From NCBI GenBank assembly GCA_022768325.1, contig JALEMI010000117.1, forward strand, positions 1 through 33,539: a stretch of 33,539 nt of DNA. Direction: 5' to 3'. Positions 1 through 33,539 of the stretch are shown piece by piece. Every line of letters begins with the position of its first letter. The stretch's first letter is position 1. The DNA comes from Bacteroidales bacterium (GTDB lineage Bacteria; Bacteroidota; Bacteroidia; Bacteroidales; Marinilabiliaceae). The notes under the pieces are model-generated. The model saw nothing but the letters and a program-made list of their open reading frames with translations, was not told the DNA's origin and ran no database searches. Both the position numbers and the translations under genes were made by a program.

Positions 1-99
1 GATGTCGAAACGGTCGGCGGTCTTCTCGAACCGCACGGCGTCGAAATTTTCCATGAGCGCCTCGGGCAGCATGGCTTTCAAAAGCTCTAGTTCTACCAT
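1..99 (-). CDS. N-terminus of a transposase-like protein (partial, ISAon1-type)
   Basis: The minus strand reads ATG at 99 and stays open for 33 codons to the window edge. The protein begins MVELELLKAMLPEALMENFD and continues through VRFEKTADRFDI. This Leu-rich opening ending in a hydrophobic-E-x-F-D segment resembles the short N-terminal protein of ISAon1-type insertion sequences in Bacteroidota, which is encoded separately from the DDE transposase. That match comes from memory of the family and was not searched. If right, the rest of the element lies outside the window and one end of it falls between 100 and the A2M gene. Only 33 residues are visible, so a different protein is possible. Confidence 0.45.
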   Translation of the reverse strand, partial: MVELELLKAMLPEALMENFDAVRFEKTADRFDI

Positions 100-240
100 A
101 ATGCAAGGTTACAACTTTATGCCGACACGGCCTAGCCTCCCACTGGGAAAATCCGCTGACCCTGAATACGCCCCCATTGGCACACTTATTGCCTCAGGAC
201 TTTCCGCCGACGAGCCGCCAGCGTTGCCAGCCGAACGCTG

Positions 241-290
241 TTCAAATGGCGTTTGAACGGCGTTCAAACAATCTTTGAAGACCCTTTGAA
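241..290. repeat. 11-bp-phased TTCAAA/TTTGAA array, five units
   Basis: Five hexamers start at 241, 252, 263, 274 and 285, exactly 11 bp apart: TTCAAA, TTTGAA, TTCAAA, TTTGAA, TTTGAA. The two hexamers are reverse complements of each other. The 5-bp spacers differ (tggcg, cggcg, caatc, gaccc). The middle contains a perfect palindrome, GTTTGAACGGCGTTCAAAC (251-269). Spacing close to one helical turn puts all sites on about one face of the DNA, as expected for cooperative protein binding. The array lies 51 bp upstream of the A2M start codon. A second array with the same spacing is at 33222-33260. Its function is unknown. Confidence 0.85.
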
Positions 291-310
291 CAACATCCGG
301 GCTCTATCAT

Positions 311-318
311 TAACTTTA
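311..318 (+). promoter_or_regulatory. possible Bacteroides-type -7 box for the A2M gene
   Basis: TAACTTTA is one base off the TAnnTTTG consensus and sits 23 bp before the ATG at 342. A TTTG at 285-288, inside the last unit of the phased array, lies 22 bp upstream and could act as the -33 element. The array may therefore overlap the promoter. This is inference from spacing. Confidence 0.35.
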
Positions 319-341
319 TGAAACCATAACATTCAGACACA

Positions 342-3300
342 ATGTTTCGTAGAATTGGAATCCTTGCTATCGTAATCCTCTTGGGCCTTATTGCCGCTCA
401 GGCTCTCACCCAATCTCCCCAAAAGACAGCCAACATGACCGACCAAGAACTAAAAGAAAAAATCGACTCCCTCGCCAAACTTGAGCAACCCCTCTCGGCC
501 GCCAAATTCATTGCCGAAGCCAAGAAACGTGCCAAAGCGACCCACGACACCCCGTGGATGCTCGACATCATCAATACAGAGATTGAGCTCAATTCCCGCC
601 GTCTCGCCCGCTCCTCTTCAGTCGAAGAGGAATACGAAAAAGCTATCAAAGACGCATGGACACCACTGACTCATGCCCTGCGCTTCGCCCAATTCACCCA
701 TACGGGCAATAATAGCTTCCTCGCCCCCCTCCTTGCCGATGCCGACCAGCTCTTCAATTTCTCCGCCAAAGAAATCGGTGCCGAGAATAGATGGATGGCT
801 TCGCGCAACGCCCTCGATTACATTGCCACGCACATCGCCGTGAGCTACTCATCAGATGATTCGCAAAAGGCCCAAGCCGTCGACATCCTCGAACGACAAG
901 CCAAGGCCCACTCCGACACAACGTCACAAATAATAGCCACAGCCCTCCGGGTAATCATCAATTCAGATGAATCGTTGCAAGAGGCGCTCACCGATTCACT
1001 CTTAGCCATCCCGGCGACCTCGCCCGAGCAGAAGGCCATTGTCAACTTTGTCCGCGCCTTGCAAATCATCGACACAGTCAACCTCACCCCCGCCCACCCT
1101 ACGGACGAGCAAATAGCCCAAGCCGATAAGCTGATTTCCGAGGCCAAATCCCTCTTTACATACGTCGTCAACAATCTCCCAAAGACAATTTTCTCACTCA
1201 AGGCAAAACAGACCATCAAGAAAATCGACGCCCCATACCTCAACATACAAAGCGACACCCAAATAATCCCAGGCGCATACACACCCGTATACCTTGAGTA
1301 TCGCAACGTCAAGGACATCGAGATCCGCCTCTATCAAGTTGACAATAAGGAGATTGAACACTCCTCAGACATAAACACCTACGACCTCGAAGAGTACCTC
1401 AAGACGATTCACTGCAGCACATCGCGCAAGCTCACCCTCCCCGTAACCAACCACAGCCTCAAAAACACTTCAACGTACGTCGAGATGGAGGGCATGAAGC
1501 CAGGCCTCGTGGCCATTGCTGCTTTCCATAACGATTCGCTCATCGACTGCCACTTTTCCTTGTGTTCACAAATTGCTGTAAATCAGGTCGACGCGCAACT
1601 CCTAATCTCCGATTTCCAAACGGGCCGCCCCCTCACCAAGGCCTGCGTTGGCGGCAAAATGCACACCGACGCCGACGGTTGGACACAACCAATAATGGGT
1701 TCAAACGAGGATTTCACCGTCACTCTTGGCAACAACGACAAGTTCACTTTCAACTGGTATGGACATAGCCGCAACAGATTCGTAAATAGAGTCCAGTCCG
1801 CACGAGTCCTCACCGATAGGAACATCTACCGCCCAGGACAGAAAATCTCTTTCAAAGCGTTCGTCTTCACCTCCTACATTGACCATATCGCCCCAGGGGA
1901 AAACGAAGACTACGAACTCATCTTGTCCGCCGCCAACGGCAAGGTGATTGCCAAACAGAGCATTACGACCGACGCCCTCGGCACGGCATGGGGCGAGATT
2001 GTCATCCCGACCGACGCTTTCAAGGGCAGGGCAAGCCTCCAAATAAGTAACAAAAGAAGCTCCCTCTGCTGGCAAAGCATACAAATTGAGGACTTCAAGC
2101 GCACCGACAATTCGCTGAAAATTGACCCCTTCACCGAGGCCTATCTCCCCGGAGCCACGGTCTCCGTCACGGGCAGTGGCTCGTCGGCCGCCGGTCTCCC
2201 CGTGGCCAATGCGGCGGTAGAATACACCATCAACAGGCAGGGGAGCGTCATTGCCAACGGCACTACGACCACCGACGATAATGGCCAGTTCTCGTTCACG
2301 TTCAAGACCTCCAACGACAAGCAGGACGCGACATACTCCATCGAGGTCCGCATGACGGACCTGAAGGGCGAGACCGTAACCGAGCAGCGCAACTGCCACA
2401 TCTTAAAGACTGGCACCAACATACGCTTGGCCCTCAAAAAAGGCATGGCCGTGACGGGGCAATCGCTCCCCATCACCCTCAACTCCATCAACTCCAACGA
2501 CGAGCCTTTCGCGGCAAAGCTGCATCTCAGCGTCACGCCTTTCGCCCCTTCCGAGCCGCTTAAGCCCCGCGCCGAGCATTACTCTGACACGACACTCTCG
2601 CCCAACGCCAGTGTCGTATGGTATTTCCCAAACAATGCGGCCTCGCTGTCTGACAAGCCATGCGCCGAACGCGACTTCGACGTCAACGGCTCCCTCACGT
2701 TCGACCTCAAAGAGCTCAGCCTCGCGCCAGGCAAGTACAGCATCCGCCTGACGGCCACAGCCTTAGACGGCAGTGAGCTGCGCAACGAGGCAGAGGCCAC
2801 GGTCATTGCCACAGATGGCGCATCGCCAAACCTCGACTATCTCGACATATTCGCCCCCGAAACGGCTAATAGCGGCGATACGCTCACGGTCAAGCTCTGC
2901 TCGGGCATTCAAGACGCTTTAGTAAACGTCGTCATAGCCCACCGCGGCAAGATTATAGCCCGCAAGGCGGTCAACGTCTCGTGCGGCGTGGCAAACGTAT
3001 GCTACAACATACCCGCAGATGCCATTAACGGCGAGACGCTCGCAATTCATGCCTTCACAACAAAAGACGGTCGACACTATCATCAGGAGAGGCAAATCAC
3101 CCTCCACCACCAAGAGCGGCAGATTGCCCTAACCCTCAATACCTTCCGAGACCACTCGCGCCCGGGAGCGCATGAGACGTGGACTCTCTCAACCGACAGC
3201 AAGGCGGTCGTTGTGGCATCGATGTACGACAGCCGTCTCGATAAGTACATCAGCAACAAGTGGGAACCGCGCATCAACCGCACAAGCATCCCTAACTATA

Positions 3301-5840
3301 TATTCCACAATTCGTTCTCTCCCGAAATATACCTTCACACGCACCCGCTGTATGACACCAACGCATACCTGAACTCCGCAGAAATCATAGAATCAACGTT
3401 CTGTGAGCTTGTTGACGCCAAGAGGAGATGGGGAGTTATGAAAGAGGAAGCGATTTGTTACGAATCCGTCTGTTTCGCAAGAAACAAGTCTCTAAGTCCG
3501 CGAATGGCAGTCTCTATTGGCATGAACGATTTAGCTGAGGAGGAGTCCATGGTGTCGGAAGACAACGACGGTGATAGTGGCGGCGAGACATCGTCCTCCG
3601 ACACATCCGCCGTCACGCCCCGCGAGAACTTTGCCGAGACGGTCTTCTTCATGCCCTGCCTCACGCCCGACACCAATGGCAACGTGACGCTCTCCTTCAC
3701 CCTGCCCGACAACCTCACGACCTACAACTTCCGAGCCCTCGCCCACGACGCAGAGCTCCACGTGGCCATGGCTACGCAAACCCTGACGGTCAATAAGCCG
3801 CTCAACGTCCGCATGGGCGCGCCGCGCTTCCTGACCGAGCAAGACGTGATAGACTTCGCCGCCGACATCTCCGCCGCCGACACGTCAATTGCCCACGCCA
3901 CGGCCTCCATCTCCGTCACCGACCCCGCCACGGGGCGTCAGGTCGTCGCTCTGCCCGACGTAGAGCTGTCCTTTGCCAACGCCATCTCGCAACAAGCCGC
4001 ATGGCAATTTGAAGTCCCCCTGGGTGTCGATTCCCTCCAAATAGACATCGTCGCCAAGACCAAGGGCGCATCCGACGGCGAGAGGCGCATAATCCCCGTC
4101 GTCAAGCGATATGACGAAGTGGCGGAGAGCCACTCCTTCGCCCTCGTCAATAAGGGCGACAACAAGCTGAAAAACCCCTTCGCAGAGGAGCATACCACCT
4201 GCCTCACCTTCTCCTACACCAGCAATGCCTTCATCGAGGTGATCCGCGCCCTGCCTACGCTCGACAAGGATTGGTATCCATCCACCGACACGTACCTCGG
4301 GCGGTTCGAGACGGCGGCCATAGCCTCCATGCTCAGCAAAAAGCCCGAAATCAAGAAGGCCGTAGACTACCTGGCCAAGAACGTCGCCAAAGATGACGCC
4401 CCGCTCCAGATAGCCGATGCCGAACACACGCCGTGGTTCTACATGGCTCTCCGCCTGCGTCAGCACGACAAGGATGTCGTAAAACTCATGGACACCAACC
4501 GCGCCAATAGGGTCAAGGCCTCGTCTCTCGCCAAGCTCGCCAAGATGCAGCTCAGCGACGGCTCGTTCCCCTGGTTCAGCGGAATGGACGGCTCTGCATG
4601 GATGACGACGGGCGTGGTCTCAACAATTGGCGAGATGATTCACCTCGGCGTGATAAAGGGCGACGAGCCTCACGTGAGCCAGATATGCAAACGCGCCATT
4701 CCCTATCTCGACAACATAATCAAGGGGTATCACAACCCCAAGGGCAGCAGCAACGCCTGGTGCCCCCTCGAACTCCTCTACGCTCGCATCCTCGTATCGC
4801 CAAACCTCAGCAAGGAGGAGACTGCGCTTGTCGACTCCCTGGCGGCTCATTGGCAAATGCCGAGCATGGTGGACCGCGTCACGGCGGCCACCATCCTCAC
4901 CCTCGCGGGACGCAAGGCCGACGCCATGACCATCGTCAAGAGCCTCGAAGAGAACCTCGTCCAGACGAACGACGGCACGGCCTACATTCCCGAAGAGGGC
5001 CTCTTCCGCCGCCGTGCGCAAGTTGAGGCGCAAGCCATGCTCATAATGACGCTCCAACGCCTCAATCCGAAAAGCCCCAACCTCCCCAAGATTATCAACC
5101 ACCTCATCCTCATGAAGCGTGGCGAGGCGTGGCCCGACGCTCAAAGCACCAGCCGCGCCGTGCTTGCCCTCCTCGGCTCGTCGGCCTCCGTGGCTTCGAC
5201 CGACGTTGTCACCGTGGCCGACACTACCGTCACCCTCACCCCGTCCAATCCCAAGACCGAGCTCTCCATCCCCGTCAACACCCGCACGGCGACCGTCAAC
5301 AAGTCAAACGACGTGACATCGTGGGGCAGCTGGAGCCGCGTAGCCCTGTTGGCCAAGGACCAGATGCCCGCCTACGGCACGGATAAGCTCAAAATTTCCC
5401 GCACCATCGAAGTGCGGCGCGTCGTAGGCAACGATGTCCAGTGGATGCCGCTCGACGCCGTCGCCACGCCCCTCGCCATTGGCGACCAAATCCGCGTGAC
5501 GCTCAAGTTCTACAACGACGAGCCGCTGAGCTTTGTCCGCATATCCGACTTCCGCGCCGCCGCCCTGGAGCCTGACGACAAGCTCTCGGGATACCGCGGA
5601 TGGTGGTGGTGGGCCCGCACGAGTGCCGACATCCCTACGCCTCCCCACTATATGTCCATTGCCGACAACTCGGTCGATTTCTTCATAGACTACCTCAACG
5701 ACGGCTGGCACCAGCTGAGCTACACCCTCACGCTCGCCAACAAGGGCCGCTTTGCCGCGGGATATGCCGACGCCACGTGCCTCTACGAGACCGAGATAAA
5801 AGCGCACACCGAGGGGCGCAGGCTTGAAGTGGTGAAATAG
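342..5840 (+). CDS. alpha-2-macroglobulin-like protein, no thioester
   Basis: This 1832-residue protein opens with a hydrophobic signal segment (about residues 4-22) with no lipobox Cys, so it is exported but probably not a lipoprotein. An MG2-type stretch with TDRNIYRPGQ lies near residue 490. A long acidic, Ser-rich linker (about 1065-1090) precedes the conserved A2M domain, with FAETVFFMPCLTPD and LPDNLTTYNFRALAHD near 1095-1130. A C-terminal helical region follows, including LSDGSFPWFSGMDG. Bacterial A2Ms are thought to trap proteases or stabilise the envelope. Where the CxEQ thioester should lie, after the ALP sequence near residue 1310, the protein reads WYPSTDTYLGRF with no Cys, so covalent trapping is not expected. 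No pbpC partner is adjacent. Family assignment is secure; its role here is inference. Confidence 0.9.
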   Translation: MFRRIGILAIVILLGLIAAQALTQSPQKTANMTDQELKEKIDSLAKLEQPLSAAKFIAEAKKRAKATHDTPWMLDIINTEIELNSRRLARSSSVEEEYEKAIKDAWTPLTHALRFAQFTHTGNNSFLAPLLADADQLFNFSAKEIGAENRWMASRNALDYIATHIAVSYSSDDSQKAQAVDILERQAKAHSDTTSQIIATALRVIINSDESLQEALTDSLLAIPATSPEQKAIVNFVRALQIIDTVNLTPAHPTDEQIAQADKLISEAKSLFTYVVNNLPKTIFSLKAKQTIKKIDAPYLNIQSDTQIIPGAYTPVYLEYRNVKDIEIRLYQVDNKEIEHSSDINTYDLEEYLKTIHCSTSRKLTLPVTNHSLKNTSTYVEMEGMKPGLVAIAAFHNDSLIDCHFSLCSQIAVNQVDAQLLISDFQTGRPLTKACVGGKMHTDADGWTQPIMGSNEDFTVTLGNNDKFTFNWYGHSRNRFVNRVQSARVLTDRNIYRPGQKISFKAFVFTSYIDHIAPGENEDYELILSAANGKVIAKQSITTDALGTAWGEIVIPTDAFKGRASLQISNKRSSLCWQSIQIEDFKRTDNSLKIDPFTEAYLPGATVSVTGSGSSAAGLPVANAAVEYTINRQGSVIANGTTTTDDNGQFSFTFKTSNDKQDATYSIEVRMTDLKGETVTEQRNCHILKTGTNIRLALKKGMAVTGQSLPITLNSINSNDEPFAAKLHLSVTPFAPSEPLKPRAEHYSDTTLSPNASVVWYFPNNAASLSDKPCAERDFDVNGSLTFDLKELSLAPGKYSIRLTATALDGSELRNEAEATVIATDGASPNLDYLDIFAPETANSGDTLTVKLCSGIQDALVNVVIAHRGKIIARKAVNVSCGVANVCYNIPADAINGETLAIHAFTTKDGRHYHQERQITLHHQERQIALTLNTFRDHSRPGAHETWTLSTDSKAVVVASMYDSRLDKYISNKWEPRINRTSIPNYIFHNSFSPEIYLHTHPLYDTNAYLNSAEIIESTFCELVDAKRRWGVMKEEAICYESVCFARNKSLSPRMAVSIGMNDLAEEESMVSEDNDGDSGGETSSSDTSAVTPRENFAETVFFMPCLTPDTNGNVTLSFTLPDNLTTYNFRALAHDAELHVAMATQTLTVNKPLNVRMGAPRFLTEQDVIDFAADISAADTSIAHATASISVTDPATGRQVVALPDVELSFANAISQQAAWQFEVPLGVDSLQIDIVAKTKGASDGERRIIPVVKRYDEVAESHSFALVNKGDNKLKNPFAEEHTTCLTFSYTSNAFIEVIRALPTLDKDWYPSTDTYLGRFETAAIASMLSKKPEIKKAVDYLAKNVAKDDAPLQIADAEHTPWFYMALRLRQHDKDVVKLMDTNRANRVKASSLAKLAKMQLSDGSFPWFSGMDGSAWMTTGVVSTIGEMIHLGVIKGDEPHVSQICKRAIPYLDNIIKGYHNPKGSSNAWCPLELLYARILVSPNLSKEETALVDSLAAHWQMPSMVDRVTAATILTLAGRKADAMTIVKSLEENLVQTNDGTAYIPEEGLFRRRAQVEAQAMLIMTLQRLNPKSPNLPKIINHLILMKRGEAWPDAQSTSRAVLALLGSSASVASTDVVTVADTTVTLTPSNPKTELSIPVNTRTATVNKSNDVTSWGSWSRVALLAKDQMPAYGTDKLKISRTIEVRRVVGNDVQWMPLDAVATPLAIGDQIRVTLKFYNDEPLSFVRISDFRAAALEPDDKLSGYRGWWWWARTSADIPTPPHYMSIADNSVDFFIDYLNDGWHQLSYTLTLANKGRFAAGYADATCLYETEIKAHTEGRRLEVVK

Positions 5841-17775: not shown

Positions 17776-19568
17776 TTACTCCGTCTCAATATTCTTGAAT
17801 TTCCTCCATCCTCTCGCCGCCTTGTAGGACTTCTCCGCCTCTTTGGGGACGACAAGGGTGGCGTTTTCGTAAATTTGGCCGTATAGCACGTGTGGCACGT
17901 CATCAGATTCGGGGGGCGTTACGCCCGCGCAAATGACGCTTTCGAGGTTGCAGTTGCAGAATGCGAAGTCGTCAATTCTCGTCACCCACTCGGGTATTCT
18001 AATGACCTTGAGGCTGGAGCATTCGCAGAACGTGCATTCGCTGATATGTTTCAATCCCTTGGGAATCTTGAAGTCCGCAAGTTTGTAGCATCGGCGAAAT
18101 ATGCCTTTGCCAATATCTTTTAAGCTGTCGGGGAGGCTGATGTTCGTTAGGTTGGAGCAGTCGCAGAATGCCCATTTGCCAATATGCGTCACGCCCTCGG
18201 GGATGTCGATGTTTTCGAGGCTGGAACAGCTTCTGAATGCACTGTCGCCAATCTCCGTCACGCTGCTTGGGATGTTGAAGTTTGTGACTTTGGTGCAGTT
18301 CTCAAATGCGCTGTCGCCAATATGCGTTACGCTCTCGGGGATGTCGATGCTTGTGAGGTTGGGGCAGTCGCCAAATGCGCCGTCGCCAATATGTGTCACG
18401 CCCTGGGGGATTGAGAAACCGCCCGCTCTTGCCCCAGGACAAGAAATGAGCTCTGTCTGGTCAACGTCATAGAGAATGCCATCGACGGAACTGAATCTCC
18501 TGTTGTTACTGTCGACGTTTACGCTTGTGAGATTGTAGCATTCGTTGAATACGAATTCGCCAATAAACGTAACGCTCTCGGGGATATTGATGCTTGTGAG
18601 CTTGGAGCAGCCGTAGAACGCGCCGTCAGCAAGATGCGTCACGCTCTTGGGAATTGAAACACTGCCCGCTCTTGCCCCAGGGCAACAAAAGAGTTTTGTC
18701 TGGTCAATGTTATAGAGAATGCCGTCTACGCAACAGAAATCGCTGTTGTTGCTGTCGACGGTTATGCTCGCCAGGCTGAAACACTTGCCGAATGCGTGGC
18801 CGTCAATACGTGCTACGCCCTTGGGGATTTTGATGCTTGTGAGGCTCGTGCAGCCGTAGAATGAGTATTTCCCAATACGTGTTACGCTCTTGGGGATGTT
18901 GATGCTTGCGAGGCTCGTGCAACCATCGAATGAGTATTTCCCAATACGTGTTACGCTCTTGGGGAGGGTTATGCTTGTGAGGCTGGAGCATTCGGAGAAT
19001 ACGTAATCGCCAAAACGCGTCGCGCTCTCGGGGATATTGACGCTTGCGAGGCTGGAGCATTCGTTGAATGCGTAGTCGCCAATACGTCTCACGCCCTCGG
19101 GGATGCGCCATCGCCAATTTGCGTTATGCTGTCGGGGAGATTGATGCTTTTGAGGCTCGAGCAGTTCTGGAATGCGTTCGCGCCAATGGTGGTTACGTCC
19201 TCGGGTATGTTGATGCTTTTGAGTTTGGCGCATTTACTGAACGCTTTTTTGCCAATGGTGGTTACGCCCTTGGGGAGGTTGATGCTTTTGAGCTTGGAGC
19301 AGGAGCTAAATGCTCCGTTGCCAATACGCGTAACGCTCTCGGGGATGGTTACGCTCGTGAGGTTGGAGCAGCCGCTGAATGCGTCTTTGCCAATGGACAC
19401 TATGCCATCGGGGATGGTTATGCTTTTTATGTCATTGCGGTCCTTGAAGGCTTCGTCGCTAATCTTAAGAGCTTCGCCGTTTTGAATAACGGTGGTAGGT
19501 ATCTCAAGCTGTGAGGCTTCGCTGCTTTTGATGTTGTTTTCGGCGGTTGTCATGTCCTTACTTTCCAT
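17776..19568 (-). pseudogene. BspA-like leucine-rich-repeat protein, frameshifted
   Basis: The gene starts at ATG 19568 (MESKDMTTAENN) and encodes about 19 LRR units of 23 residues, of the BspA/Treponema type (IPxSVTxIGxxAFxxCSSLxSI). Two units carry the usual insertion with VDSNN and SSVDGILYDVDQTEL. It ends in the standard C-terminus, VVPKEAEKSYKAARGWRKFK. The first frame stops after IGDGA; the repeats resume at IPEGVRRIGDYAF in another frame, at about 19100-19113. The middle of one unit (FxxCSSLxSIx) is missing, a net loss of 34 nt. No signal peptide is visible. Intact relatives are often surface or host-contact proteins. It is broken as it stands, unless the frameshift is a sequencing error. 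Confidence 0.88.
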
Positions 19569-19764: not shown

Positions 19765-21186
19765 TTACAATTCGTATAAATCATCCAGCTGTATCTCAGC
19801 TTGAATATCACCCCAATACTCATTATGCGCCAAGCCGTCCGTTGTTACCATAATGGTATGAATGGCCTTCTTTGTGCCTGTAACAGATTGTAAAACACTG
19901 CGTTTGCGAGCAAGTTCTCCGGCGTAGTCCGACGTGATGACGTATGAATCCTTAGAGTATTTCATTTCGCAAACGTCAATAATCCCATCGCTTCGGTCTA
20001 TCAGAAGGTCTATCAGAACTCCCGACCTGCCGACGCTCTCGTCGGGCAAGCAACGCCAAGCGTATTCATTAGTCAGTATTCCGCTGATGCCAAGTTTCTT
20101 TTTAATCTGGTCAACGTGCCATAGGCAAGTTCGCTCAAAGGCCAAGCCGCACCAAGTGTTATATTTTGGGGTTCCCAACATTGACCTCCAATAATTTGAG
20201 CCTTGGCGCTCTCCGTCTATGTATTCGTAATAGAACAGCGTATAATGGTCTATCAGCTTGAAAATGTCCGATTTTACCCGATTACCTATCATGGAATAAC
20301 TTCTGATGAAGCCACACCACTCCAAATCATTCAGGATGTCAGAAAATGTCCCATTATCTTCAAATTTCCCGGCCACCAACAACTCTTTCCGAGTCATTCC
20401 CATCTTTTTCTTTGCCAACAACTCAACGACGCGAATGTACGGCTCTGCATTTTTGAACAGGGAAGCATACAGCATCTCGTATTCGTCATGCAGCTCCCCA
20501 TTAGGCGAAAAAATCAGTCTATCAATCTCAGTTGTTATGCTGGTTCCTTTTTGTAACAAACTCCAATAATATGGCACACCGCCAAACACCATGTAGGCTT
20601 CCAACTTCTGCTTGCGATTCAAAACAATGCCTCTCGACTGAGCCAACTTCTCGCATAATCCCAGAGGGAAGGGATTGAGTAATATGCGATGGTTCAATCG
20701 ATTATGAAGCCCGCCCTTATTCTTGATGATTTTCTTGACCATCCACGAGGTGCTGCTTCCGCATACCACAAAAACTATGTCCTTTCTTGCCGATGCCCAC
20801 CCATTCCAAAAAGACTCCAATTCTGAGAGAAACCCTGAGCGCGGAGCGTCCATCCACGGTAGTTCGTCAAAGAAAACAATCTTTTTGCCTTCCGGCAGAT
20901 TTGCAATGAATCGTTTGAGTTCGCTGAAGGCATCGCCCCAATTGGTCAGTTCGGGAGTGTCATTTTGCCCATGTTCTTTGAGCGCACGCCGGAAACGCAC
21001 CAACTGCTTTCTCGATGTTAGATTTGCAGCACCGGTATATTGGAAGTCAAAACGGTTTTCAAAAGTCTCCCTGATTAGAAAAGTCTTGCCAACACGACGT
21101 CTCCCATACACAGCTATAAACTGTGAATATTCTTCGTTTTGAGCATTCAGCAATACTTGTTTTTCTTTTTCGCGACCTATCAACAT
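19765..21186 (-). CDS. ATPase with C-terminal PD-(D/E)XK-like domain (DUF234 type)
   Basis: The 473-residue protein has an archaeal-type ATPase domain: Walker A GRRRVGKT (about 28-35), Walker B KIVFFDELPW (about 105-115) and a sensor strand VFVVCGSS. A winged-helix segment follows in the middle. The C-terminus reads GVLIDLLIDR and then IIDVCEMKYS, the D and E-x-K spacing of the PD-(D/E)XK nuclease fold found in DUF234. Such proteins are common in Bacteroidota and archaea; their function is not established, and defence or mobile-element maintenance has been suggested. The gene is AT-richer and uses different codons from its neighbours, which suggests acquisition. It has no obvious partner. Confidence 0.85.
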   Translation of the reverse strand: MLIGREKEKQVLLNAQNEEYSQFIAVYGRRRVGKTFLIRETFENRFDFQYTGAANLTSRKQLVRFRRALKEHGQNDTPELTNWGDAFSELKRFIANLPEGKKIVFFDELPWMDAPRSGFLSELESFWNGWASARKDIVFVVCGSSTSWMVKKIIKNKGGLHNRLNHRILLNPFPLGLCEKLAQSRGIVLNRKQKLEAYMVFGGVPYYWSLLQKGTSITTEIDRLIFSPNGELHDEYEMLYASLFKNAEPYIRVVELLAKKKMGMTRKELLVAGKFEDNGTFSDILNDLEWCGFIRSYSMIGNRVKSDIFKLIDHYTLFYYEYIDGERQGSNYWRSMLGTPKYNTWCGLAFERTCLWHVDQIKKKLGISGILTNEYAWRCLPDESVGRSGVLIDLLIDRSDGIIDVCEMKYSKDSYVITSDYAGELARKRSVLQSVTGTKKAIHTIMVTTDGLAHNEYWGDIQAEIQLDDLYEL

Positions 21187-32050: not shown

Positions 32051-33063
32051 ATGGCGAAGGCAAAGCCTTTCATCAAGTGGGTTGGCGGGAAGAGCCAGCT
32101 CATTGAGCAGCTTGACGCTCTTCTTCCTGCGGAGTTTGACTATTTGACGGACGTGACATATATTGAGCCGTTTGTGGGCGGCGGGGCTATGCTGTTCTAT
32201 ATGCTTCAGCGGTATCCGAACATTCGTCAGGCTGTCATAAACGACATAAATCCCGACTTGGCAACGTGTTACAGGACGGTGCGCGACAGCCCCGAGGAAC
32301 TCATCGCGTCGCTGCGCGACATTGAGAACGAGTACAAAAGCCTTGAAACGGAGGACGCGAAGAAAGACTTCTACATGGCAGTCCGCTCACGATATAACGA
32401 GAAGGACCTGGGCGACATTGAAAACACTACAAAATTCTTCTTCTTGAACAGGACACCTGTTTCAACGGGTTGTATAGGGTCAACAAGAAGGGGCTTTTTA
32501 ACGTGCCGTTTGGGAAGTATGCGAATCCTACGATTTGCGACCCCGTCACCATACGAGAAGACAGCCGCCTACTCCAACGCGTGGAGATACTGAATGGCGA
32601 TTTTGAAGAGACCCTCGGACACGCCAAGGGCGGCAACACCCTCTTCTATTTCGACCCACCCTATCGTCCGCTTAGCGACACGTCGTATTTCAACGACTAC
32701 GCCAAAGACGGATTTGGAGATGACGCGCAAATACGCCTAAAGATGTTTTGCGACCGCGTCCACGAGGCAGGATTCCGTTTCATGCTGAGTAACTCGGATT
32801 GCAAAGCGAAAAACGAGCAGGACAACTTCTTCGACAACCTGTACAAACATTACCACATCGAGAGGGTTCTCGCGTCGCGATGCGTCAATTCCAACCCGAG
32901 CAAACGGGGGAAACTGACGGAGATATTGGTGCATAACTATGAGCAGACGAAAGGACGCGAAGGGCGGCTGCTGTTTGAGGTGGGTTGTGAGGGGATGGGG
33001 GTTAGTGTGGCGGCGAGAACCCGTCAATCACCACGCCATGGATTTGATTGCCGCAGCTGCTGA
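32051..33063 (+). pseudogene. dam: D12-class DNA adenine methylase (Dam type), frameshifted
   Basis: The gene starts at ATG 32051 and reads PFIKWVGGKSQL (SAM-binding motif I) and YIEPFVGGGAMLFYML, then AVINDINPDL. At KFFFLNRT it breaks: the family continues T-C-F-N-G-L-Y-R-V, which here is found two bases out of frame. The DNA has ACACC where ACC is expected, a duplicated AC at about 32453-32457. The second half is intact in the other frame, with YFDPPYRPLSDTSYF (catalytic DPPY) and a C-terminus near LTEILVHNY. As written it makes only a truncated protein. Dam methylates adenine in GATC; the site specificity here is inferred. No restriction enzyme is adjacent, so it looks like an orphan. The tail beyond LVHNY looks unrelated. 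Confidence 0.9.
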
Positions 33064-33221: not shown

Positions 33222-33260
33222 TTCAAACACGATTCAAACGCCGTTTGAAAACCTTTTGAA
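33222..33260. repeat. 11-bp-phased TTCAAA/TTTGAA array, four units
   Basis: Hexamers start at 33222, 33233, 33244 and 33255, exactly 11 bp apart: TTCAAA, TTCAAA, TTTGAA, TTTGAA. The middle pair makes the palindrome TTCAAACGCCGTTTGAA (33233-33249), close to the one in the first array. It lies between the stop of the TonB receptor (33267) and the start of the tiny Cys/Trp ORF (33215), so it could be an operator or leader element for the latter. No U-run follows the palindrome, so it is not a standard terminator. Confidence 0.83.
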
Positions 33261-33266
33261 CGCACA

Positions 33267-33539
33267 TCAGAACTCAATATTGAGCTTTACGTTTATTCTT
33301 CTGCTCGTCAGGTAGTTAGGCACGCCGAAGCGGTGGCCGTCGTTGTCGGACACCCAGAAATAGGAGATTGTGTTGGCAAAGTCGAAGAGATTGAAGACCT
33401 CCACGCCGAGCTTGGCGGAGCGGAGGGAGGGCCTCTTGCACGTGCCGTCTGAGCCGATGGCGAAATCCTTGTAGAGGCCGAGGTCCACGCGTTTGTAGCC
33501 GGGCATACGGCTCGTGGCTTGCCAACGCTGGCAGCCCTG
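33267..33539 (-). CDS. TonB-dependent outer membrane receptor, C-terminus (partial)
   Basis: The minus strand is open from the window edge to TGA at 33267, giving the last 90 residues. They match the end of Bacteroidota TonB-dependent receptors: YKRVDLGLYKDF, then LGVEVFNLFDFANTISYFWV and the final barrel strand YLTSRRINVKLNIEF with terminal Phe for outer-membrane assembly. Such receptors import nutrients with energy from TonB. The plug domain, the substrate class and any SusD partner lie outside the window. An in-frame Met at 33506 is internal, not the start. Confidence 0.9.
   Translation of the reverse strand, partial: QGCQRWQATSRMPGYKRVDLGLYKDFAIGSDGTCKRPSLRSAKLGVEVFNLFDFANTISYFWVSDNDGHRFGVPNYLTSRRINVKLNIEF

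Follow-up and report, generated by a model that had tools for sequence, protein, structure and literature searches.

What recognizes a run of short, near-identical DNA blocks set 11 bp apart, and what would a bacterial chromosome use it for? The question is raised by the left end of a 33,539-nucleotide stretch from a Bacteroidales bacterium of the Marinilabiliaceae (assembly GCA_022768325.1, contig JALEMI010000117.1, positions 1 to 33,539; "the window" means this whole stretch), where five TTCAAA or TTTGAA hexamers stand upstream of a gene for an alpha-2-macroglobulin-like (A2M) protein. This array is one of 33 in the genome. DNA gyrase is the best-supported partner, and we put the probability that the arrays correspond to arms of strong gyrase sites, written into gene ends, at roughly 0.6 on the sequence comparisons below. 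Two of the arrays lie in the window.

241..290, no strand assigned: array 1, five exact TTYRAA hexamers in 11-bp steps, with a degenerate unit on the left from about 230
33222..33260, no strand assigned: array 2, four exact TTYRAA hexamers in 11-bp steps, with a degenerate unit after them

A helically phased array with a set size and rule

Array 1 reads TTCAAA (241), TTTGAA (252), TTCAAA (263), TTTGAA (274) and TTTGAA (285), with the spacers tggcg, cggcg, caatc and gaccc in that order. Array 2 begins 6 bp beyond the stop codon of a minus-strand open reading frame (ORF) at 33267. The initial annotation had placed five hexamers at these positions of array 1 in 11-bp phase, and its coordinates are confirmed; the extent that it gave holds for the exact units and misses the degenerate one. 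The window has seven two-unit matches, where 100 shuffles averaged 0.03. Across the source genome (2.72 Mb in 133 contigs) there are 61 three-unit matches, forming the 33 distinct arrays, and none with a reversed-pattern control. Periods of 8, 9, 10, 12, 13, 14 and 15 bp gave no three-unit arrays, compared with 61 at period 11, in 367,239 bases around the arrays, a sample that contains all 61 whole-genome matches, covers 13% of the genome and was picked for its 11-bp arrays.

The hexamers of the 33 arrays are TTTGAA (65), TTCAAA (50), TTTAAA (8) and TTCGAA (4). The earlier description of conserved hexamers holds, whereas the accompanying one of non-conserved spacers does not, as 87 of 94 spacers fit NRSYN. 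Both hexamer and spacer are two-fold symmetric by letter class about their centers, so the direction of a unit is immaterial; hexamer orientation is mixed, and runs in the same direction are frequent. Counting degenerate edge units, arrays have three to eight units, the mode being five (about 50 bp; 18 of 33). No further periodicity was found outward of the arrays, and no flanking letters are conserved past one extra unit, although cleavage motifs are weak. Spacers and hexamers differ from array to array, with only three cases of identical neighboring spacers in the 33. Two arrays on one contig (C112; 166-204 and 3457-3506 of its stretch L169) have both flanks in common, with four and five units and different spacers.

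We regard a helically phased array with a set size and rule as established. Variable but rule-bound spacers, mixed orientation, a single period and the lack of excess RNA folding (see below) together support a site that acts at the level of DNA. A simple tandem repeat, which does describe 29 near-exact foreign arrays that we excluded, does not fit the source arrays with their variable, rule-bound spacers. The center of TTYRAA is a flexible pyrimidine-purine step in an AT context, and the GC-rich NRSYN lies half a turn off. This alternation suggests DNA wrapped with its AT minor grooves inward. Our search of the open-access literature found no description of such arrays, and we claim nothing wider than that.

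Placement, spread and turnover

A genome scan relating 11-bp arrays to genes, as the initial annotation had proposed, showed that tandem and convergent junctions are favored. With genes called by our own simple method, 15 arrays lie at tandem, 10 at convergent and one at divergent junctions, with three in coding sequence (83% of the stretches around the 33 arrays) and four at stretch ends; tandem or convergent junctions thus hold 25 of 33. For the 25 arrays with an adjacent stop codon, the median distance to it was 29 bp, against 100.5 bp for random placing in the same gaps, and 15 were at most 60 bp away, with 9.5 expected. In B. caecigallinarum An428a, 26 arrays, taken from listed places, fall at 15 tandem, eight convergent and three divergent junctions and never in coding sequence; 20 of 23 are no more than 60 bp from a stop (13.8 expected) and 2 of 18 no more than 60 bp from a start (6.8 expected). 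The 10 arrays of Bacteroidales SUG1661 include five convergent, four tandem and one coding. The bias is weaker among the 85 foreign four-unit arrays that were listed and retained after the exclusion mentioned above (34 tandem, 17 convergent, nine divergent, 11 in ORFs, 14 at edges). A Pfam scan of 20 of the 23 array-adjacent genes revealed no common function, and three of the 20 had no match at 1e-8. The median length is 432 aa for the 23 genes whose ends lie no more than 130 bp from an array, compared with 306.5 aa for 276 called genes.

The array trait is strong where present and patchy in its spread. Eleven of 14 genus mates had no match, and the other three (G003, G007 and G012) had 1, 5 and 9. 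Across the phylum, the stricter NRSYN pattern occurred in 3 of 395 sampled genomes, including the source genome; the other two had three matches together versus two for the reversed control, which we take as background. Against the two refuting conditions set by the initial annotation, no excess over shuffled sequence or no conservation in sister genomes, the outcome is mixed: the excess is very large, but few of the genus mates have any array. When one genome per species was scanned, at least 112 stretches with four-unit arrays were found. Among 37 genomes counted, most of them picked for already having a match, the source had 52, the B. caecigallinarum/Phocaeicola group 66, 55, 44, 38, 27 and 26, SUG1661 12 and a Ruminococcus 10; nineteen had 1 to 6 and nine had 0. 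The reversed control gave 0 in all 37.

Some foreign matches stand apart. In Methanosarcina and relatives (L055, L073, L080, L108, L142), the pattern picked up something of another kind, TTCAAAAGCTA or TTTGAATAGCT repeated exactly in tandem every 11 bp. In Gastranaerophilales and gut records (L042, L046, L061, L088, L122, L143), an array is kept between species at one place, next to a conserved gene that is small, at about 75 aa. In Bartonella ML69XJBT, one array sequence occurs on two contigs on opposite strands (L103, L131), so it behaves there as a dispersed repeat.

In five B. caecigallinarum-group genomes, turnover was followed at two loci that had been located by the DNA beside them. A comparison of every array with every other was discarded, since one pattern had served to find both sides. 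At the first locus, register is kept in L302, L303 and L305 and the array is degenerate in L300 and L301. Counted over alignment cells, which are not independent events, changes affected 15 of 41 pyrimidine-purine letters (13 of them transitions), 7 of 82 TT/AA letters, 13 of 45 RSY letters and 162 of 1385 flanking letters. At the second locus, L314 keeps the array and L311, L312 and L313 are without it, and L310 has precisely one extra 11-bp unit relative to L231, as if arrays grow by unit duplication; TT/AA changes were 6 of 80 with nine gaps, and flank changes 139 of 1247. The turnover of array letters equals or exceeds that of the flanks, that of TT/AA being only slightly slower, and where the array persists, its register persists.

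Phage Mu and Mu-like phages

Several foreign arrays belong to Mu-like phages. One in a Helicobacter genome (L078) lies between a transposase gene (Pfam rve) and the next gene, and another, in a viral contig (L218), lies between rve and AAA_22 genes; a third (L220) adjoins a weak rve match and an AAA_22 gene, and a fourth (L111) stands 136 bp before a gene with a Mu transposase C-terminal domain. Mu requires a strong gyrase site at its center, of which the right arm is essential and bends DNA, while deletion of the left arm hardly affects cleavage (PMC10052514). Given these neighbors and this requirement, Mu was scanned with a matrix derived solely from the 33 arrays of the source genome.

With five units, the right arm of the gyrase site (place 17907, beside the annotated cut at 17879-17880) ranks first of 36,663 places; with four units it ranks third of 36,674. 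An independent matrix from B. caecigallinarum returned the right arm as the second separate place. Its sequence, TTTAAA-ccggt-ATTTAA-cggtg-TATGAA-tcccg-TTTTAT, has the features of our arrays: AT blocks phased at 11 bp, GC between them, a length of about 50 bp and a position past a gene end. The two differ in that Mu has a single central site with a known cut, whereas the arrays number 33 in one chromosome and are more regular. Three further Mu places reach scores like that of the known site, namely the A-B junction (3296-3350), the T-gp35 junction (20043-20097) and the invertase gene (35216-35270). A reading as Mu repressor operators, with the early operator taken to lie between the repressor genes (864-1098), was considered and dropped, as none of the top eight places fell there with three matrices and three to five units.

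In five more Mu-like phages, 13-kb stretches were scanned that include the gap separating the neck and protease genes, equivalent to the place of the Mu site, and we asked how this G-to-I gap ranked. This gap is 2% of the stretch in Vibrio ZX4290, Ps56 and Mannheimia, 9% in D3112 and 14% in HS6. With four units its ranks were 2 (Vibrio ZX4290), 1 (Ps56), 1 (Mannheimia), 1 (D3112) and 1 (HS6); with five units they were 4, 1, 1, 2 and 7 in the same order. Dinucleotide shuffles of the six gaps attained the four-unit score in 0 (Mu), 2, 10, 3, 1 and 20 of 500 cases. The best period was 11 in Mu, Ps56 and D3112. A Helicobacter pullorum prophage, MT835710, Kp4852-3 and Bise were scanned with no prior expectation and left uncounted.

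The gyrase reading and its rivals

If gyrase is the partner, some 50 bp of alternating kinkable, AT-rich TTYRAA blocks and GC-rich NRSYN blocks, one pair per 11 bp, would wrap the C-terminal beta-pinwheel of GyrA, the AT minor grooves facing the protein and the GC blocks outward. Transcription leaves positive supercoils at tandem and convergent junctions, where many arrays follow stop codons, and the arrays would retain or recruit gyrase at such gene ends. Both the binding and this purpose are our interpretation. The source genome does encode a GyrA with six pinwheel blades (PF03989) in one 871-aa ORF on contig C47. In the published accounts, the E. coli gyrase motif has a 47-bp periodic arm (PMC6379681), the pinwheel wraps 48 bp of DNA that is underwound locally and forms a right-handed superhelix (preprint PMC12393610), and the Mu right arm lies on the gyrase C-terminal domain with its AT minor groove toward the protein and GC outward (PMC11626157). 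The modal array of five units and about 50 bp matches this arm and this wrap, which favors gyrase. The ranks in Mu and the other Mu-like phages, the placement past stop codons, the six-bladed GyrA and the arrays adjoining transposase-AAA gene pairs count in its favor as well. The 11-bp period would likewise suit an underwound, right-handed wrap.

Several observations weigh against gyrase. Gyrase is universal and the arrays are patchy among genomes. Array 1 itself is atypical, sitting upstream of A2M, between the end of a repeated element and the A2M start. No second periodic arm and no conserved cleavage motif were found beside the arrays, such motifs being weak. Among the phages, the five-unit rank was only fourth in Vibrio and seventh in HS6, and period 10 beat 11 in Mannheimia and HS6, while periods 9 to 12 scored about equally in Vibrio. 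In pSC101, the gyrase region, which we presume to lie at 4500-5300, was not among the top places, its best score ranking 10th; the pSC101 gyrase site is not known to have Mu function. In E. coli (PMC6379681), the two arms of the gyrase motif flank a 36-bp center and its period is 10 bp, gyrase gathers 2-5 kb downstream of operons instead of at the stop codon, and its enrichment is ascribed to transcription and not hard-wired in sequence.

The strongest competitor, which we consider unlikely, is that some other protein, one that wraps DNA or forms filaments and may be a nucleoid protein yet to be described, contacts one face of the DNA every 11 bp and nucleates on the arrays. The strict register, the letter-class symmetry and the discrete 50-bp size would all suit it, and so would a very patchy spread, which a universal enzyme does not predict. 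No such protein was identified, however, and the array matrix picks out the gyrase site of Mu as well as the corresponding gap of Mu-like phages.

More doubtful still is a multi-dimer operator or centromere-like site, bound by a ribbon-helix-helix or ParR-like protein with 11-bp iterons. Plasmid R1 parC has 11-bp iterons, and the period and two-fold unit symmetry would fit one dimer per turn. The 33 sites are scattered, however, and mostly away from promoters; the adjacent genes scanned have no function in common, and arrays are gained and lost at orthologous places. The initial annotation had read array 1, ahead of A2M, as the footprint of a multi-site DNA-binding protein and not as a simple tandem repeat. 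We retain a DNA-level site on one helical face; a general role for a multi-site regulator ahead of A2M is unsupported, given the 25 of 33 arrays at tandem or convergent junctions and the lack of a common gene function. The surroundings of both window arrays are as follows.

342..5840, plus strand: A2M-like gene, 1832 aa (Pfam bMG10, MG2, A2M), right neighbor of array 1
1..162, minus strand: end of a repeated element, by inference an insertion sequence; left neighbor of array 1, which lies outside it
285..318, plus strand: candidate A2M promoter elements from the sequence, TTTG (285-288) and TAACTTTA (311-318), spacing 22 bp
33267..33539, minus strand: outer-membrane-type protein, C-terminal part running off the window, with array 2 after its stop

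The initial annotation had offered the TTTG at 285 as a possible -33 element of A2M, and we take TAACTTTA at 311-318 to be a near match to a Bacteroidota -7 element and a candidate. A2M relatives are present in 15 of 15 genomes of the genus, the source included. The A2M loci examined, those of 5 of the 14 genus mates, have not even two exact units upstream, the G007 contig having less than 180 bp of upstream sequence; G012 has a degenerate four-unit score of 19/24 at -142. An A2M operator was rejected on these five loci, which are without an array. Array 1 as part of an insertion sequence was also rejected, the repeat stopping at 162. Copies of the repeated element are found at C125:1-162 (99%) and C34:1-99 (100%), and its 33-aa ORF fragment had no match in a Pfam search. 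The ORF at 33267..33539 has a weak Pfam match (OMP_b-brl_4, E 0.054). At 32051-33063 on the plus strand, a match to the D12 adenine methyltransferase profile extends over 117 of its 253 positions, and the next ORF is in a different frame; the gene is possibly broken.

Two further explanations are very improbable. A transcription-end element acting as RNA (a hairpin, terminator or 3' stabilizer) would account for placement just beyond stop codons, for opposite hexamers that can pair and for the T run after one array (L154), but same-direction hexamer runs are common and the 33 arrays fold no better than unit-shuffled versions (z +0.57); the 85 foreign arrays pooled do fold better than pooled shuffles (z -2.39), a value on which we put no weight, several species being mixed in the pool. 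Small mobile repeats of the REP or MITE kind would explain arrays that are patchy, multi-copy and intergenic, the common flanks of the two C112 arrays and the identical Bartonella pair on opposite strands, but what the arrays have in common is period and letter classes, not sequence, and, of the flanks of array 1, the element end at 1-162 alone has matches elsewhere.

Known systems resemble the arrays in part. The BIME-2 (REP) sites of E. coli, which gyrase binds and cuts (PMC6379681), are likewise intergenic and multi-copy. BIMEs are one conserved palindrome family, whereas our arrays have only period and letter classes in common; a BIME/REP element was rejected on this ground, with hexamers and spacers varying among arrays and no single conserved palindromic family. 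The E. coli Topo-Seq motif shares helically phased GC and a 47-bp arm but, as described in the same source, is 130 bp long, two-armed, of 10-bp period and very degenerate. In class A flexible 11-bp patterns (PMC1242344), T or TT recurs at intervals of 10-11.5 bp and the inner letters fall halfway between; unlike these patterns, the arrays are fixed at 11 bp, and only 3 of 33 lie in coding sequence.

If the gyrase reading is right, the arrays would be a chromosome-wide, unusually regular version of the strong gyrase site. We hold more tentatively, at a little under even odds, the broader proposal that some gut bacteria carry near-ideal, sequence-encoded gyrase landing sites at dozens of gene ends across the chromosome, forming a hard-wired layer of supercoil relief for which E. 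coli shows no counterpart. Its letters would turn over fast with the 11-bp register kept; it would have expanded in more than one lineage and be common to Mu-like phages that depend on such a site. Hard-wired gyrase placement would then become directly testable, with TTYRAA-NRSYN once per 11 bp as its sharp sequence rule, and the arrays would give structural studies strong natural sites, useful also to map how fluoroquinolones act in gut anaerobes.
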